Assembly (NCBI GenBank): GCA_024644775.1
Contig: JAHEHB010000359.1
Span: 1-5,736 of the forward strand
DNA: 5,736 nucleotides
Reading direction: 5' to 3'
Source: Deltaproteobacteria bacterium
GTDB lineage: Bacteria; Desulfobacterota; Desulfobacteria; Desulfobacterales; SURF-15
Shown: piece by piece, positions 1 to 5,736 of the stretch
Numbering within the stretch: the first letter of the stretch is position 1
How the letters are laid out: each line of letters opens with the position of its first letter
Made by a program: the position numbers and the translations under genes
The notes under the pieces: model-generated
What the model was told of the DNA's origin: nothing
The model's database searches: none
Seen by the model: only the letters and a program-made list of their open reading frames with translations

Positions 1-120
1 GAAGAGCTGGCCGTCTCGACCTGGCCGAAGTTTGAAAAGGTCGTGCCCTCTGAGACCATAAAGATTATCCAGGACAACATGGGCCCCGACAGCGGAAAAG
101 GGTTCGGCGTCATATACTAG
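1..120 (+). CDS. C-terminal end of a gene cut by the window edge, probably a TRAP solute-binding protein (DctP type)
   Basis: Frame 1 is open from the first base and ends at TAG (118-120), giving 39 residues that begin EELAVSTWPKF and end GKGFGVIY. The fragment is too short to show any family-defining motif. The call rests mainly on position: TRAP operons commonly run binding protein, small membrane subunit, large membrane subunit, and the two membrane subunits follow on the same strand. The mixed polar, lysine- and glutamate-containing tail would suit a periplasmic binding protein, which captures the substrate and delivers it to the membrane subunits. A strong hairpin lies 78 bases after the stop, a common arrangement where the binding protein must be made in excess. 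It could instead be the end of an unrelated enzyme. The existence of a coding end here is more certain than its identity. Confidence 0.55.
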   Translation, partial: EELAVSTWPKFEKVVPSETIKIIQDNMGPDSGKGFGVIY

Positions 121-198
121 CAAAGCGTCGCCTTATGCGGAAACTTGACTCATTTGTTAAGTATCGGATCATCTTAAACGGTTATTCATTGAAATGAC

Positions 199-225
199 TG
201 CGTGGCCGGTGCTACCGGCCACGCA
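199..225 (+). promoter_or_regulatory. Perfect 12-bp intercistronic hairpin between the putative binding-protein gene and dctQ
   Basis: Bases 199-210 (TGCGTGGCCGGT) are the exact reverse complement of 214-225, with a 3-base GCT loop. The stem is very GC-rich. No T run follows (the next bases are acagcaaacc), so it is not a standard intrinsic terminator. In binding-protein-dependent transport operons, hairpins at this position are known to protect the upstream message from 3' decay or to reduce read-through, giving more binding protein than membrane subunits. That role is inferred here from position and structure. Confidence 0.7.
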
Positions 226-246
226 ACAGCAAACCAAAATCGATAT

Positions 247-250
247 GGGA
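247..250 (+). promoter_or_regulatory. Probable ribosome binding site of the DctQ-type gene
   Basis: GGGA lies 8 bases before ATG 259. It is modest, but it supports ATG 259 over the in-frame GTG at 202. That GTG is buried in the 5' arm of the perfect hairpin at 199-225 and has no Shine-Dalgarno-like sequence before it. Confidence 0.45.
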
Positions 251-258
251 ACGTATCC

Positions 259-783
259 ATGAGCGAAACACCTGCCATCCGCTTTTTGAACAGCGTCCGA
301 TCAGCCGTACAATGGCCGGTTAAAATACTCTGTTTTTTATTGTTCAGCCTGATGGTTGTCGATGTGTTTTTAGCGGTGCTGACCCGGTATATATTGGACG
401 AACCGTTTAACTTTTGCGATGCGGTCGCAAAGTATTTACTGATATGGTTTTCCCTGCCTGCTGCCGGTCTTGCGGTGCAGGATAAAGCCCATATCGCGAT
501 TGATGCGCTTACAAGAAGATGGTCGACACGGTATCAAAAACTAATGATGATCATCATCAACGCAATGATCAGTTTTTTCCTGATTTTGATGATCAAATAC
601 GGTATAGACTATACTAAAAGGGGCATGCTCTATACGGACCCGATTGTGTGGGATCTGCCTCTGGTTTATGTGTACCTGGCTCTGCCGGTCGGCCTTTCCT
701 ATATCTTGTTTGAATTTAATCTCGAAACCAGCCTGTATGTTTTAAGCGATGATGGCAGCGGCACGTATTTTCGCGATGATTAA
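259..783 (+). CDS. TRAP transporter small membrane subunit (DctQ type)
   Basis: This 174-residue inner-membrane protein is the small permease subunit of a TRAP system, which uses an ion gradient to import carboxylates handed over by a periplasmic binding protein. Four hydrophobic segments are visible at about residues 20-42, 54-73, 93-114 and 134-152. Between the first two is the family-like TRYILDEPF, followed by FCDAVAKYLLIW. After the second comes AVQDKAHIAID, matching the usual small-residue stretch ending in H-I-x-x-D. The position often held by Glu before the second helix appears to be Asp here (D54). The length is normal for the family. The frame stays open back to GTG 202, but that codon lies within a hairpin and the extra 19 residues look unlike an N-terminus, so ATG 259 was chosen. 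The large subunit starts 36 bases after the stop, implying one operon. The substrate cannot be read from this subunit. Confidence 0.9.
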   Translation: MSETPAIRFLNSVRSAVQWPVKILCFLLFSLMVVDVFLAVLTRYILDEPFNFCDAVAKYLLIWFSLPAAGLAVQDKAHIAIDALTRRWSTRYQKLMMIIINAMISFFLILMIKYGIDYTKRGMLYTDPIVWDLPLVYVYLALPVGLSYILFEFNLETSLYVLSDDGSGTYFRDD

Positions 784-819
784 CGTCCGGAATCATATTC
801 AAATGAAACGGTGTAAAAT

Positions 820-2106
820 ATGCTGTTGGTCTTGCTAACATCGTTCTTTGTTCTGGTGGCCCTCGGGTTTCCCGTTGCCTTTGGATTGGGCATATCCACC
901 ACTTTTGTCATGTGGATAACGGACGCTCCATTGGGTATTTTACCCATGCGTCTGTGGTCGGGCATCGACAAATTCGCCTGGGTGGCTATACCGCTTTTCA
1001 TGCTTGCCGGTGAGCTGATGGGAACCGGCGGCATTCTGCAGAGGCTGCTTGATTTTGCCAGAATGTGCGTCGGCAGGTTAAAAGGCGGGCTGTTGCATGT
1101 CAACATATTCGTCAGTATGCTGTTTGGAGGAATTAATGGATCCGGGCCCGCAGATACCAGCGCGGTTGGCTCTCTTCTCATACCGGCCACCGTTGCCGAA
1201 TACAAAGACTCTCCCCTTGCCGCCGCCGTGACGGCCTGCTCTTCCATGGTGGGTCCCATCATACCCCCCAGCCTGCCGATGATCATCTACGCCCTGGTTT
1301 CACAAACCGTCACCATCAGCGGAATGTTTCTGGCGGGTGTGGTTCCGGGTATTCTCCTTGGGGTGGGAATGATGGGGGCGACAGCCTTAATTGTTAAAAA
1401 AAGAGGCTTCCCCAGAGACGAAACGAAATATTCGACCAAAGATGTTTTGAGAATATGCCGTCGCTTTACTCTGGCCATGGTGCTGCCCCTGATAATGGTT
1501 GGTGGCGTGGTAAGCGGTATCTTTACAGCAACGGAATCCGCGGGCGTCGCTGTCATCTACGCCTTAATTGTAGGGTTGCTTGTTACCAGGGAGCTCAATT
1601 TTCAGAAGATATTCGTCGCCGTGATAAATGCCGCTAAAATGACCGGTGTCATCATGATTATGGTAGGAATTGCCAATATCGGCATCTGGTGGCTGTCCAC
1701 ACAGCAGTTGGCCACTCAATTGAGCGAGCTCATACAGAGTTTGACCAATTCCCCAATCATTCTTCTGTGCATTGTGGCCATCATGTACCTCGTTCTCGGA
1801 ATTGTAATCGATTGCTCTGCGTTGCTTATCATGATGGTGCCGGTCTTTACGCCAATCTGCCTTAGCTATGGCCTGAACCCTCTCCACGTTGGCATGGTTT
1901 CGGTTCTTTCCATAATGCTGGGTCTGCTGACACCGCCGGTCTCGGTGGGTCTATTTATCGCCAGCACCATAGCAAGAACGCCGCTTGAGCAGGTTTTTAA
2001 ATCATCATTGCCGCTGTTAGCGGTATGCGTCGCCACGCTTTTCATCATTATATTTTTTCCCGAAAGCTGCTTGTGGGTCCCCAAGTTATTTGGTTATGTG
2101 GAGTAG
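820..2106 (+). CDS. TRAP transporter large membrane subunit (DctM type)
   Basis: This 428-residue, highly hydrophobic protein has the usual length and signature stretches of the large TRAP permease subunit, which forms the substrate pathway in the inner membrane. Motifs in order are an N-terminal helix with LGFPVAFGLGIS (15-26), IPLFMLAGELM (57-67), a GGLLHVN stretch (89-95), INGSGPADTSAVGSLLIPA (105-123), SSMVGPIIPPSLPMIIY (141-157), GIFTATESAG (233-242) and GLLTPPVSVGLF (368-379). The start at ATG 820 puts the first helix at the very N-terminus, as is typical. A weak GGTG (810-813) lies 6 bases before it. It follows the small subunit by 36 bases and precedes the sulfatase-fold gene by 43 bases on the same strand, so co-transcription is likely. 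Substrate class is inferred only from neighbours: a sugar acid or an esterified derivative. Confidence 0.95.
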   Translation: MLLVLLTSFFVLVALGFPVAFGLGISTTFVMWITDAPLGILPMRLWSGIDKFAWVAIPLFMLAGELMGTGGILQRLLDFARMCVGRLKGGLLHVNIFVSMLFGGINGSGPADTSAVGSLLIPATVAEYKDSPLAAAVTACSSMVGPIIPPSLPMIIYALVSQTVTISGMFLAGVVPGILLGVGMMGATALIVKKRGFPRDETKYSTKDVLRICRRFTLAMVLPLIMVGGVVSGIFTATESAGVAVIYALIVGLLVTRELNFQKIFVAVINAAKMTGVIMIMVGIANIGIWWLSTQQLATQLSELIQSLTNSPIILLCIVAIMYLVLGIVIDCSALLIMMVPVFTPICLSYGLNPLHVGMVSVLSIMLGLLTPPVSVGLFIASTIARTPLEQVFKSSLPLLAVCVATLFIIIFFPESCLWVPKLFGYVE

Positions 2107-2138
2107 ATTGATTGATTCACCGGAGTAAAGAAAAAATT

Positions 2139-2143
2139 GGAGG
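2139..2143 (+). promoter_or_regulatory. Strong Shine-Dalgarno site of the sulfatase-fold gene
   Basis: GGAGG ends 6 bases before ATG 2150, near-ideal spacing. It is clearly stronger than the sites before the two TRAP membrane genes, suggesting this enzyme is translated more efficiently than the permease. It fixes the start at 2150, so the protein begins directly with the first strand of the catalytic fold. Confidence 0.8.
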
Positions 2144-2149
2144 AATAAA

Positions 2150-3556
2150 ATGAACTTGATTCTTGTGGTTATTGACAGTCTTCGGGCCGATCATCTGGGC
2201 TGCTACGGCAATTCCTGGATAAAGACGCCCAATTTTGATGCCTTTGCAAAGGAAAGCGTTCTGTTCGAACGGTGTCATCCGGAATCGCTACCCACCATTC
2301 CCATGCGGCGGTGTCTGCACACGGGAAACCGACTCTTTCCCTTCCGGGACTGGCAGACCAAGGCCGGCGACACCGTCACCACCCCGGGATGGGCGCCGTT
2401 CCGGGAAACCGATACTACTTTGTCTGAAATTTTACTGCCCGAGGGCTACCGCACCGCATTTATCAGCGATGTGTACCACATGTTCAAACCCTCCATGAAC
2501 TTCCACCGGTCCTTCAAGGAGTGGCGGTTTATCCGGGGCCAGGAATATGACCAGTACCGGTCCGCACCCCCTCCAGCCCATATCGATGTGGACCACTATC
2601 TCAAACCCGAAATCCTCGGGACCTACATTCACACCAAGATCCTGCAGTATCTCTCCAACACGGCGTTTCGAAAGGGAGAGGAAGACTACTTTTCCCCCAT
2701 GGTATTCGGCGAAGCCATGCGATGGGTGGAGGAAAACCAGGATGCGGAAAACTTTTTCCTTTGGGTCGACTCCTTCGACCCCCACGAACCTTGGGATCCG
2801 CCCCAGGAATACCGCGATCTTTACAACCCTGGATACACGGGAAAGGAGATCATCAATTGTGCCGTGGGGAATGCGAAGGACTATCTCACCGAGGAAGAAC
2901 TCAAACATACCCGAGCGCTTTACGCCGCCGAGGTGACCCTGGTGGACAAGTGGTTCGGGAAACTCGTGGAAAAGGTCCGGGAATTGGGGCTTATGGAAAA
3001 CACTCTATTTGTCATGGTCTCGGACCACGGACACCCCCTCGGCGAACACGGCATCATCCATAAGCATCCTTCGGCCATGTATCCGACGCTTATGGACTGT
3101 CCCATGATGATTCGGCATCCATCAGGTGTTGGCGCAGGCACCCGGGTCAGTGAATTTGTCTACCAGCACGATCTGTTCACCACCATGCTGAACCAGCTGG
3201 GGGTTGAGCCGCCTGAGCCGGTGGACAGCCAGGACCTCTGGCCGCTGGTGACCGGACAGGGCGGACCCAAAAGGGAGTTTGTAACCTGCGGCATCGGGCG
3301 CTTTGTATGGGTCAAGGACGATCACTACGCATACATCGCCGAAACCGACGGCACGCACCCCAGGCTGTTCGATCTCAAGACCGACCCGGGTAACTTCAAG
3401 GATATCTCTGTCGAAAATCCGGAAATTTGCAAAGAAATGCACCGGAAGGCCGAAACCGATGCCGGCGGTCCTCTGCCGGACTTTTCCTATCTCACCGGGT
3501 ATTCGGCCAAGGCTGAATTCCGTACGGGACAGGATCAGAAAAAAACGAAAATTTGA
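2150..3556 (+). CDS. Sulfatase-fold hydrolase (alkaline phosphatase superfamily) with Thr at the nucleophile position
   Basis: This 468-residue enzyme probably hydrolyses a sulfate, phosphate or phosphonate ester. Sulfatase-family landmarks are present in order: VVIDSLRADHLGCYG (6-20) with metal-ligand candidate D9; the nucleophile motif PTIPMRRCLHTG (48-59); FDPHEPW (209-215) with H212; and SDHGHPLGEHG (291-301) with D292 and H293, followed by HKHP with K305. Aligning the motif to C/S-x-P-x-R-x-x-L-x-T-G matches P51, R53, L56, T58 and G59, but the residue normally oxidised to formylglycine is T49. Thr serves as the nucleophile in other superfamily members such as nucleotide pyrophosphatase/phosphodiesterases, so activity without maturation is plausible. 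There is no signal peptide or lipobox, so the location should be cytosolic. From memory, homologues with this PTIP-x-RR form exist and are annotated simply as sulfatase. The gene looks more GC-rich than its neighbours. The substrate is unknown. Confidence 0.88.
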   Translation: MNLILVVIDSLRADHLGCYGNSWIKTPNFDAFAKESVLFERCHPESLPTIPMRRCLHTGNRLFPFRDWQTKAGDTVTTPGWAPFRETDTTLSEILLPEGYRTAFISDVYHMFKPSMNFHRSFKEWRFIRGQEYDQYRSAPPPAHIDVDHYLKPEILGTYIHTKILQYLSNTAFRKGEEDYFSPMVFGEAMRWVEENQDAENFFLWVDSFDPHEPWDPPQEYRDLYNPGYTGKEIINCAVGNAKDYLTEEELKHTRALYAAEVTLVDKWFGKLVEKVRELGLMENTLFVMVSDHGHPLGEHGIIHKHPSAMYPTLMDCPMMIRHPSGVGAGTRVSEFVYQHDLFTTMLNQLGVEPPEPVDSQDLWPLVTGQGGPKREFVTCGIGRFVWVKDDHYAYIAETDGTHPRLFDLKTDPGNFKDISVENPEICKEMHRKAETDAGGPLPDFSYLTGYSAKAEFRTGQDQKKTKI

Positions 3557-3605
3557 ATCACAGAACTACAAGTCTGCTGGTGGCGACCTATCATGACCTC
3601 GTAAG

Positions 3606-3669
3606 ATTCCCGGGTTCGTCGTTCCGGGATGACGTAATAAAGGAATTTCGGGATTTTTACGAAATCGTC
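3606..3669. repeat. Imperfect inverted-repeat region in the spacer, possibly a worn dispersed repeat
   Basis: Two small stems lie side by side. TCCCGG (3608-3613) pairs with CCGGGA (3624-3629), extendable by a G-T pair. ATTTCG (3645-3650) pairs with CGAAAT (3660-3665). GACG (3631-3634) could also pair with CGTC (3666-3669) around the second stem. The gattccc...gggatgacg layout resembles short palindromic intergenic repeats common in many proteobacterial genomes. Only one copy is visible, so repeat status is inference. No T run follows either stem as in a classic terminator. The rest of the 159-base spacer (3557-3715) holds a short tandem TTAGGAA/TTAGGAA (3680-3693) and no recognisable gene. 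Confidence 0.35.
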
Positions 3670-3704
3670 ACGTATACATTAGGAATTAGGAATATGGTTT
3701 TTAA

Positions 3705-3710
3705 GAGGAG
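3705..3710 (+). promoter_or_regulatory. Strong Shine-Dalgarno site of the DHDPS-fold lyase gene
   Basis: GAGGAG ends 5 bases before ATG 3716. It supports that start, which also gives the normal family N-terminus (KFAGIYPIMYAFF at residues 6-18). Confidence 0.8.
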
Positions 3711-3715
3711 ATAGA

Positions 3716-4648
3716 ATGACTGAAAGAAAAAAATTTGCCGGTATTTATCCGATTATGTATGCATTTTTCAACTCGGATGGGACGCTGGACCCGGAAGCCA
3801 TGAAACTCCAGGTAAACCGTTGCATCGAAGCGGGCGCACAGGGAATCGTTGTGCTGGGAATTGTTACAGAGTTTAACAAACTGAATGTAAATGAGCGCCG
3901 TCAAATCTTGGAATGGGTTGGGGAAACGGTGAATGGCCGTGTGCCTTATGCGGTGACCTGTGCAGAGCCAAGCATTAGCGGCCAGGTTGAATTCGCCAAT
4001 ATTGCGAAGCAAAATGGCGCTGATTTTGTGATTCTCCAACCACCACCGGTCAAGGGGGTGGCAGAAATCGAGTATGTTCGTTTTTTTGGAACCATTGCCG
4101 GTATGTGCGAAATGCCGGTGGCAATCCAAAACAATCCGGTCAATCTGGATGTATCGTTATCCAATGAGAGCTTGATACGTCTGGGCCAGGATCATGAAAA
4201 CATTACTATACTAAAAGCTGAAGGACCGGCTGAAAATGTTGCGCGACTGATAGACAATGTAGGGGATCATTTTGATCTCTTTAGCGGTCGAGGGGGACTT
4301 GAGCTCATAACAACTTTATTGAGCGGTTGCACAGGATGCATCCCGGCACCCGATGTCTTTGATGTGGAATTGCGTATCTTTGATCTTTTTCAAAAGGGTG
4401 GGGAGGAAAATTTTGCCGAAGCGGATCGCCTGTACAAAGAAATTTTACCGTTGATCGTATTTATGAGTCAGTCCGTCACCTATACCTTGAGCTACGGGAA
4501 ATATTTAACCGCAAGACGATTGGGATTAAATAACACCGATCTAAGGGCACCCGCCCTGCAAACTACGGAATTTGGTCGAAAAATGATTGATCGTATGACC
4601 AAGGATCTCGGTCTTTTCGGGGAAATGAAAGGGAATTTAGCGCCATAA
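3716..4648 (+). CDS. Dihydrodipicolinate-synthase-fold (NAL/DHDPS family) aldolase or dehydratase, not DapA
   Basis: This 310-residue class I lyase of the DHDPS/N-acetylneuraminate lyase family has normal family length. It begins with GIYPIMYAFF and a GTLDPEAM stretch, as expected for the (beta/alpha)8 barrel. The Schiff-base lysine is most likely K167 in ITILKAEGP, corresponding to DapA Lys161, and SGRGG (190-194) follows on the next strand. Residues that define DapA are changed: the GTTGE loop reads GIVTE (48-52), the catalytic tyrosine of YNxP is Gln138 in QNNP, and the arginine that binds aspartate semialdehyde (Arg138) aligns with Asn143. The enzyme is therefore probably catabolic, acting on a 2-keto-3-deoxy sugar acid or similar 2-oxo acid by retro-aldol cleavage or dehydration in the cytosol. 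The neighbouring acid-sugar dehydratase supports this. A 159-base spacer separates it from the sulfatase-fold gene, so it may have its own promoter. The exact substrate cannot be told. Confidence 0.88.
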   Translation: MTERKKFAGIYPIMYAFFNSDGTLDPEAMKLQVNRCIEAGAQGIVVLGIVTEFNKLNVNERRQILEWVGETVNGRVPYAVTCAEPSISGQVEFANIAKQNGADFVILQPPPVKGVAEIEYVRFFGTIAGMCEMPVAIQNNPVNLDVSLSNESLIRLGQDHENITILKAEGPAENVARLIDNVGDHFDLFSGRGGLELITTLLSGCTGCIPAPDVFDVELRIFDLFQKGGEENFAEADRLYKEILPLIVFMSQSVTYTLSYGKYLTARRLGLNNTDLRAPALQTTEFGRKMIDRMTKDLGLFGEMKGNLAP

Positions 4649-4674
4649 AAAAAGATCGATTCGTCATTTGAATC
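4647..4674 (-). terminator. Weak candidate terminator for the minus-strand dehydratase gene
   Basis: Read on the minus strand, GATTC (4674-4670) pairs with GAATC (4662-4658) around a 7-base loop. GATC and then seven Ts (4653-4647) follow. The stem is only 5 bp and the T run starts 4 bases after it, so stability is doubtful. The position just past the dehydratase stop is right. It overlaps the end of the opposing lyase gene. Confidence 0.35.
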
Positions 4675-4703
4675 AGTTCAGCAACAGGACAACGGATTTT
4701 TTT
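4673..4703 (+). terminator. Weak candidate terminator for the plus-strand lyase gene
   Basis: TC-A-GTT (4673-4678) can pair with AAC-G-GA (4691-4696) with one internal mismatch and a 12-base loop, followed at once by seven Ts (4697-4703). The stem is poor, but the T run and the position 24 bases after the lyase stop suit a transcription end. The spacer is too short for much else. Confidence 0.3.
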
Positions 4704-4704
4704 C

Positions 4705-5736
4705 TTAATCGGTCATTATCAGTTTGAAGGCCTCTTCTGTTGGTTCAACACCTAACCCTGGGCCTTTAGGCAAGTGATAATAGCCCTTTTCGCACTTCAT
4801 ATTCCCCGATACGTATTTTAGATTCTTATCAAAAATTGAATGCTGGTACTCATGATAGGGCACATAGTATAGCGCCGCAGCCGCATGTAGGCTTGCGGCC
4901 TGGAAAATCCCAATCCCCATACTCGCATGAGGCATCACACGACAATGAAAGGCTTGGGCCATACGACATATATTCATGAACTCGGTAATACCGATGTGTG
5001 CCATTTCCGGCTGAAGCACACTCATGCACCGTTTAACAAGTCGTGGTAAGTACTCGTATCGGGTTCGCAATTCCTCTCCTATGGCTATGGGAACAGAAAC
5101 CGCAGCCGCAACCTGTGCTTGCCCTTCGATGTCTTCAGGAGCACAGGGAGCCTCAGCCACATGAAGGTTATACACATCCATTTGATTAATAATTTTAATA
5201 GCTTCATGGGCGGTGAATCGCCAATGCATATCAATGAGAATATCGACATCAGGTCCTACGGCTTCCCGCAATCCACGCATCTCGACGACTTCTCCTTCGA
5301 ATGAAACAGCCCCTGCGAATTTAATGGCCTTAAATCCCTTATCCACCCATTCTCGCGCTAGTTTTTTACGCTCCTCCAGTGTTTCTCGAGGAAGCCCGGA
5401 AACATAGACAGGTATCTTTTTAAGTCGTTGACCACCCAGTAGTTTCACCAGAGGCAAACCTGAAAGCTTACCGCAAACATCCCAAATGGCAATATCCACG
5501 CCGGCAATGGCATCCACGTAATACCCTCCAAAAAATCCTCGTACGTGCATCAGATCATAAAGATCTTCATAGATAACCATCACATCACCTGGAACTCGAT
5601 CCCGTATAACCGGACCCAAAACCTCTTCAATAATGTTAACAACCGTGCGCGGACTGATAATTCCATAGCACTCGCCCCAGCCAACCATACCTTCCTTTGT
5701 TGTGACTTTGACCAAAACGCATTGATCGGTAGTGGG
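4705..5736 (-). CDS. Enolase-superfamily acid-sugar dehydratase (mandelate racemase/galactonate dehydratase-like), N-terminus outside window
   Basis: The frame is open to the window edge with no stop, so the gene is 5' truncated. 343 residues are visible, starting PTTDQCVLVKVTT; full members have roughly 370-400. A TTG at 5715 is in frame, but the residues before it fit the family, so it is not the start. Visible numbering: N-terminal capping domain with GMVGWGE, then a barrel with metal ligands D169 (IDMHWRF), E195 (VAEAP) and E221 (AIGEE), spaced 26 and 26 as in mandelate racemase. E244 (QPEMAH) and H270 (MPHASMG) take the place of the usual Asp-His pair. The D-x-H pattern (D169, H171) resembles D-galactonate dehydratase, where this His is the general acid. 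No clear K-x-K motif is present; K139 in AIKFAG is nearest. Likely role: cytosolic, Mg-dependent dehydration of a sugar acid to a 2-keto-3-deoxy acid, feeding the convergent lyase. The substrate is unknown. Confidence 0.88.
   Translation of the reverse strand, partial: PTTDQCVLVKVTTKEGMVGWGECYGIISPRTVVNIIEEVLGPVIRDRVPGDVMVIYEDLYDLMHVRGFFGGYYVDAIAGVDIAIWDVCGKLSGLPLVKLLGGQRLKKIPVYVSGLPRETLEERKKLAREWVDKGFKAIKFAGAVSFEGEVVEMRGLREAVGPDVDILIDMHWRFTAHEAIKIINQMDVYNLHVAEAPCAPEDIEGQAQVAAAVSVPIAIGEELRTRYEYLPRLVKRCMSVLQPEMAHIGITEFMNICRMAQAFHCRVMPHASMGIGIFQAASLHAAAALYYVPYHEYQHSIFDKNLKYVSGNMKCEKGYYHLPKGPGLGVEPTEEAFKLIMTD

Follow-up and report, generated by a model that had tools for sequence, protein, structure and literature searches.

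The window considered here is a stretch of 5,736 nucleotides from a Deltaproteobacteria bacterium of the Desulfobacterales (assembly GCA_024644775.1, contig JAHEHB010000359.1, positions 1 to 5,736). The feature of interest is an intact open reading frame (ORF) on the forward strand (2150..3556) encoding a sulfatase-like hydrolase of 468 amino acids, in which a Thr (T49) lies at the column of the formylglycine (FGly) nucleophile. The ORF has an ATG start and is preceded by GGAGG (2139..2143, forward strand), read by eye as a likely ribosome-binding site. The protein passed the Pfam gathering score for PF00884 (127.2 against 25 bits) and the cut-off for SGSH_C (39.9 against 29.3 bits); it also matched PF01663, the domain of NPP-type phosphodiesterases (36.1 against 23 bits), with a best stretch that covers only residues 259-295, around the shared D-H region. 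The protein begins at the first core strand and no membrane segment is visible by eye; the hydrolase is probably cytosolic.

The active-site features are encoded on the forward strand. The D9-S10 pair (2174..2179) lies in the metal-ligand region and has the counterpart D-Q in the phosphonate monoester hydrolase (PMH) RlPMH and in EfAS. The motif P48-T49-I50-P51-M52-R53-R54 (2291..2311) replaces (C/S)xPxR, and within it the ACC codon of T49 (2294..2296) encodes the nucleophile proposed from alignments and conservation. D210-P211-H212-E213 (2777..2788) is part of an FDPHEPWDPP block in which H212 aligned to a conserved His of PehA, D292-H293 (3023..3028) occupies the columns of the metal-binding D-H pair in PMH and EfAS (D311-H312), and K305 (3062..3064) is the aligned active-site lysine. 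The places given in an earlier, sequence-only reading of the window for T49, P51, R53, L56, T58, G59, D9-S10, H212, D292, H293 and K305 were all correct.

That reading had placed T49 at the residue normally matured to formylglycine, which was borne out by alignment. With phmmer, T49 fell on the formylglycine or precursor column of solved sulfatase or PMH chains (4uph, 5g2v, 7oz8, 2qzu and 6hhm), a profile alignment placed it on the same column of 2vqr, and in an alignment with the pRL9 gene for PehA/RlPMH its partner was the Cys of CGPAR. The chains themselves have Ser (5g2v, 7oz8, 2qzu), Cys (6hhm) or Ala (4uph, 2vqr) in this column, the Ala presumably being a stand-in for the modified residue. 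The D, R, His, D-H and Lys that make up the remaining PMH/PehA active site were all found in aligned columns, and the Cys-derived FGly nucleophile of those enzymes is replaced by Thr. The protein thus departs from the SulfAtlas definition of family S1, (C/S)xPxR with a Cys or Ser precursor (PMC5066984).

The Thr is strongly conserved. The 120 best homologues, a set that includes the window protein, form an ESLPTxPxRR subfamily in which the T49 column holds 117 Thr, 2 gaps and 1 Ala, and a second Thr subfamily, ASFPTVPxR, has Thr in 120 of 120 rows. Since a change from ACC to TGC needs two substitutions and 117 of the 120 homologues retain the Thr, neither chance nor a single-base error accounts for it. 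D9, R53, H212, D292, H293 and K305 are unchanged in every row of the 120-row alignment that covers them, in agreement with the earlier statement that the other catalytic-type residues are intact, and the D9-S10 columns read D-S or D-T in all 117 readable rows, so that this pair marks the family. With the other catalytic positions near-invariant, decay is unlikely, and from these alignments the protein is unlikely to be a pseudoenzyme. A supposed loss of the GKWH lysine as a PMH-like sign was dropped because HMMER alignments disagree by one column there.

Thr-type relatives span Bacteria and Archaea, including Deltaproteobacteria/Desulfobacterales, Chloroflexi, Armatimonadota, Rubrobacter, Lokiarchaeota and Bathyarchaeota, among others. 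At least 79 distinct Thr-type loci were counted, from at least 583 confirmed stretches, and the family is larger than this. An alignment of the window protein with 122 rows from loci L001-L111 (123 rows in all) contained 111 Thr, 8 Cys from ordinary-type paralogues and 4 gaps, with one row counted as Thr (L069) possibly misread, as it begins after T49. Of 7,998 scored candidates, 4,986 matched the window protein at E ≤1e-3, a count in which Thr and Cys types are taken together. Further variety was noted within the family. Thr types of ~510-540 amino acids, mostly with EGLPTxPxRRAxxTG, occur at L094-L105 and L119, in genomes of the same class as that of L002, and several of them adjoin an ORF that looks thioredoxin-reductase-like. 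Another Thr group (L124, L129, L130, L135) is marked by an aromatic residue (PTHPGW, PTQPSF) that occupies the position of the motif Arg or one close to it. A recurring module (L115:1496-3225, L116:7103-9371, L001:9591-11376) consists of a small MEVKETAACGI protein adjoining a TVPTR/TIPTR-type Thr hydrolase; at L116, the module additionally contains a protein that looks GcvH-like and a 430-amino-acid protein with MTPQHRALMEKLT.

The hydrolase scored below the cut-off of all 13 NCBIfam models listed, among them the PMH/PehA equivalog model (117.1 against 900 bits) and NF052527, the model of the Mn-dependent arylsulfatase EfAS (74.2 against 850 bits). The AlphaFold2 model was confident, and the structures nearest to the predicted fold were phosphonate monoester hydrolases and arylsulfatases, in line with a sulfatase/PMH fold; YejM was also among the fold matches. 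A close known counterpart, PehA/RlPMH (2vqr; S1_0 in SulfAtlas), a phosphonate monoester hydrolase-phosphodiesterase, has the same fold, metal-pair Asp, motif Arg, His, D-H ligands and Lys, whereas it has a Cys/FGly nucleophile and D-Q in place of the Thr and D-S of the window protein. EfAS from Enterococcus faecium (9koq), ranked second by Foldseek, has D-H metal ligands as in PMHs but uses Cys61 where the window protein has T49.

A Cys twin of the Thr types was encountered in plasmids. A plasmid search returned 548 records, and regions were read from 14 of the 60 listed; Cys types (GSLPCMPARR, or GSMPCMPARR/GGLPCMPARR) were found in 13 of the 14 and a Thr type in one, from Martelella. Protein searches yielded a GSLPCMPARR set with 117 Cys and 3 gaps in 120 rows; this subfamily occurs in rhizobia, roseobacters, haloarchaea, Deinococcus, Streptomyces and Chloroflexi. 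The proteins are annotated as 'sulfatase' and no characterised member was seen among them. W81, D107, H110, R129, E132, D210, H212, E213, D292, H293 and K305 are common to this subfamily and both Thr subfamilies with almost no exceptions. The twin differs by its Cys nucleophile and, mostly, by Gly at position 45 and Glu at 113, where the subfamily of the window has Glu and Lys, respectively.

The distribution of formylglycine maturase (FGE) genes differs between the two types. Of the 13 Cys loci read, 4 (L175, L177, L178 and L180) have an FGE gene nearby; three of these genes were first seen in annotation and then used for the profile, leaving L175 as the only independent case. The same profile found none at 79 Thr-type loci (956 kb). 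The difference (Fisher p 2.6e-4) compares flanks of 1.5-8 kb for the Cys loci with flanks of up to 8 kb for the Thr loci, in sets from different collections whose rows are related within each set (L024 and L069 lie on one contig). A set of 56 places in 14 genomes, assigned to the family by profile and not individually confirmed as Thr types, has no PF03781 match that starts closer than 14 kb; it comprises 66 rows less 7 fragments and 3 rows that belong to two genomes outside the PF03781 scan. Among 40 genomes with Thr types, of unstated completeness, 21 lack PF03781, 18 lack TIGR03942 over its cut-off and 8 lack both; one of the eight (G410) was set aside for a broken TIGR03942 match. In six of the other seven, which have no recognised maturase (G004, G394, G395, G407, G413 and G418), 26 of 27 PF00884 rows carry Thr at the nucleophile place or at the position corresponding to it and one was unreadable; the seventh is G397, discussed below. 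The 27 rows were read from 34 places listed in these genomes, 9 of them by eye without column alignment, as were motifs missed by the pattern. The Thr-type family would probably work without a maturation step, because the proposed nucleophile is encoded by the gene itself.

Trees joined the Thr and Cys subfamilies in one clade (support 100/99; Shimodaira-Hasegawa-like approximate likelihood ratio test 99 in a quick 86-row tree), within which the Cys rows were monophyletic (100/100). In more careful trees, with 67 and 86 rows, the Cys clade was placed beside SFPT Thr rows, i.e., within the Thr types (98/91 and 99/99), but approximately unbiased tests did not reject trees in which a single branch separates the Thr types from the rest (p 0.28 and p 0.358). 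In the quick 86-row tree the fork was open, the constrained tree being 29 log-likelihood units higher (p 0.81). These trees fit a single Thr/Cys change within the family, which may have run in either direction.

Upstream of the hydrolase and on the same strand lie the end of an ORF that, from its place and look, may be the TRAP binding protein DctP (1..117), the TRAP transporter small permease DctQ (PF04290, 202..783) and the large permease DctM (PF06808, 820..2106), which ends 43 bases ahead of the hydrolase. A DHDPS-family protein follows on the forward strand (PF00701, 3716..4648) and a convergent enolase-superfamily MR_MLE protein lies on the reverse strand (4705..5736), its 5' end outside the window. 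Among NCBIfam models, the MR_MLE protein comes nearest to sugar-acid dehydratases, without reaching the cut-off (188 against 311 bits), and it strongly matches 4h1z and 2ppg (~387 bits), two enolase-superfamily entries with titles that name no function. The DHDPS-family protein has IQNNP where 2yxg has LYNVP; a Tyr at this place is usual in DapA-type enzymes, and because it is replaced here, the protein may not be a standard aldolase. DctM genes were also found near two close relatives, at L002 (70%) and L112 (68%). In the wider family, among the DctM matches listed, proximity to TRAP/TctA genes was uneven, with 1/1 in G001, 2/2 in G002, 9/18 in G003 and 1/1 in G419; these counts come without a computed background, and the argument from transporters was restricted to the three closest loci. 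Clustering of the neighbourhoods of 79 genome loci found no gene conserved family-wide, and the second-largest cluster (13 loci) was dropped since it looked like antisense ORFs. From the context of the window, an ester of an organic or sugar acid may be imported and degraded.

Combined, these observations somewhat favor an ester hydrolase of the alkaline phosphatase superfamily that depends on a metal but not on formylglycine, resembles FGly sulfatases and phosphonate monoester hydrolases in build, uses T49 as nucleophile and acts on a phospho- or phosphonoester rather than a sulfate ester. The TRAP transporter would, from context, import an anionic, perhaps sugar-acid-like ester, whose anionic group would bind a divalent metal coordinated by D9, D292, H293 and T49, as suggested by alignment to EfAS and RlPMH. 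T49 would then attack phosphorus, with R53 and K305 stabilising charge and H212 aiding the leaving group, and water would free the Thr-bound intermediate; the acid released might be used by the dehydratase-like and lyase-like neighbors. In FGly sulfatases, sulfate release has been proposed to occur via hemiacetal cleavage (PMC5870055), and because a Thr cannot clear a sulfo-intermediate in this way, a phosphodiester, phosphonate or phosphate ester is favored as substrate. The sequence-only reading had judged the protein to be probably active, with a changed nucleophile, and not dead, and had named a phosphodiesterase, a phosphonate hydrolase or a Thr-dependent sulfatase as candidates, each of them compatible with the sequence. 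Conservation, the structural model and the lack of FGE genes beside the Thr types speak for a working enzyme, and the alignments suggest T49 as its nucleophile.

Several observations weigh against this assignment. One homologue (P0110) has Ala in the T49 column with the motif otherwise intact. TRAP/TctA proximity is low in other genomes, again among the DctM matches listed (1/5 in G005, 0/2 in G418 and 0/2 in G429). A Lokiarchaeon (G397, L122-L163) with no PF03781 and no full-score TIGR03942 has 21 Cys, 4 Thr and 1 unreadable among 26 rows, possible duplicates included, so that absence of these two models does not prove absence of maturation; an unrecognised maturation system may operate there, and an unidentified E. 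coli maturation machinery is mentioned in PMC6189696. The Cys subfamily has most of the other residues and similar transporters (7 of its 13 loci adjoin TTT or sugar ABC transporters), so a sulfate ester may still be the substrate, and an unmodified choline sulfatase does turn over, slowly (PMC6189696). The literature searched yielded no Thr-type family member that had been assayed, solved structurally or analysed for metal.

A true sulfatase with an unmodified Thr is possible but doubtful; in it, T49 would either attack sulfur, with water then clearing the sulfo-Thr, or only position a water. Sulfatases stand beside PMHs among the best sequence and fold matches, the Cys sister, with FGE genes near some of its loci and often beside similar transporters, has the same remaining active site, and the unmodified choline sulfatase makes multiple turnovers (PMC6189696). 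On the other side, the hemiacetal cleavage proposed for FGly enzymes (PMC5870055) is closed to Thr, and according to the SulfAtlas authors FGly formation from Thr has never been shown and uncharacterised TXNXE proteins cannot be assumed to be sulfatases (PMC5066984). The EfAS C61S variant retains ~20-35% activity; as its authors ascribe this to possible oxidation of the Ser to FGly, it says little either way (PMC12421950). The trees allow a related history, rather unlikely in our judgment, in which a Thr ester hydrolase was ancestral and GSLPCMPARR later switched to Cys/FGly and recruited FGE, the Thr lineages hydrolysing the same ester class, possibly sulfate, without FGly. That T49 is only a metal ligand or structural residue, in an enzyme that is inactive or uses metal-bound water, would agree with the Ala of P0110; it is improbable, given that 237 of the 238 readable rows in the two subfamilies hold Thr and that the other catalytic positions are near-invariant.

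Still less probable is a transferase in which T49 passes a phosphoryl-type group to an acceptor other than water, like the Thr-type relatives EptA/MCR and LtaS. Phosphoethanolamine-transferase models did match, all far below cut-off (best 25.2 against 500 bits), and no NCBIfam match to LtaS was obtained up to E 0.01; the hydrolase has no visible membrane segment, has R53 and an SGSH_C end and adjoins catabolic-looking genes. EptA/MCR and LtaS are membrane enzymes, and together with the NPPs they carry a gene-encoded Thr at the nucleophile place while being membrane-anchored or bimetallic, and they do not have the soluble TxPxRR frame of the window protein. That the motif is shifted, with C42 or C55 serving as nucleophile or as FGly precursor, is hardly credible: both are Cys in the window protein, but they lie outside the (C/S)xPxR register, as had been noted earlier, and Cys occurs in only 10 of 120 rows at C42 and 1 of 120 at C55, the window protein itself, so this candidate was rejected on conservation.

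Thr in the sulfatase fold is not new, as it replaces Cys/Ser in 30 of 59 sequences of the Pfam seed, including the TXNXE group of eleven (PMC5066984). The literature searched, which covered few subscription papers, yielded no description of a soluble sulfatase-like enzyme of the TxPxR type, and a large soluble TxPxR(R) family beside a Cys twin seems to be undescribed. If the favored assignment is true, a widespread family now labelled 'sulfatase' or 'arylsulfatase A-like enzyme' breaks the formylglycine rule, and the label would lead to wrong predictions of which uncultured bacteria and archaea degrade sulfate esters. Because the Thr and Cys subfamilies have nearly all other active-site residues in common, they would constitute a natural experiment on the contribution of formylglycine.
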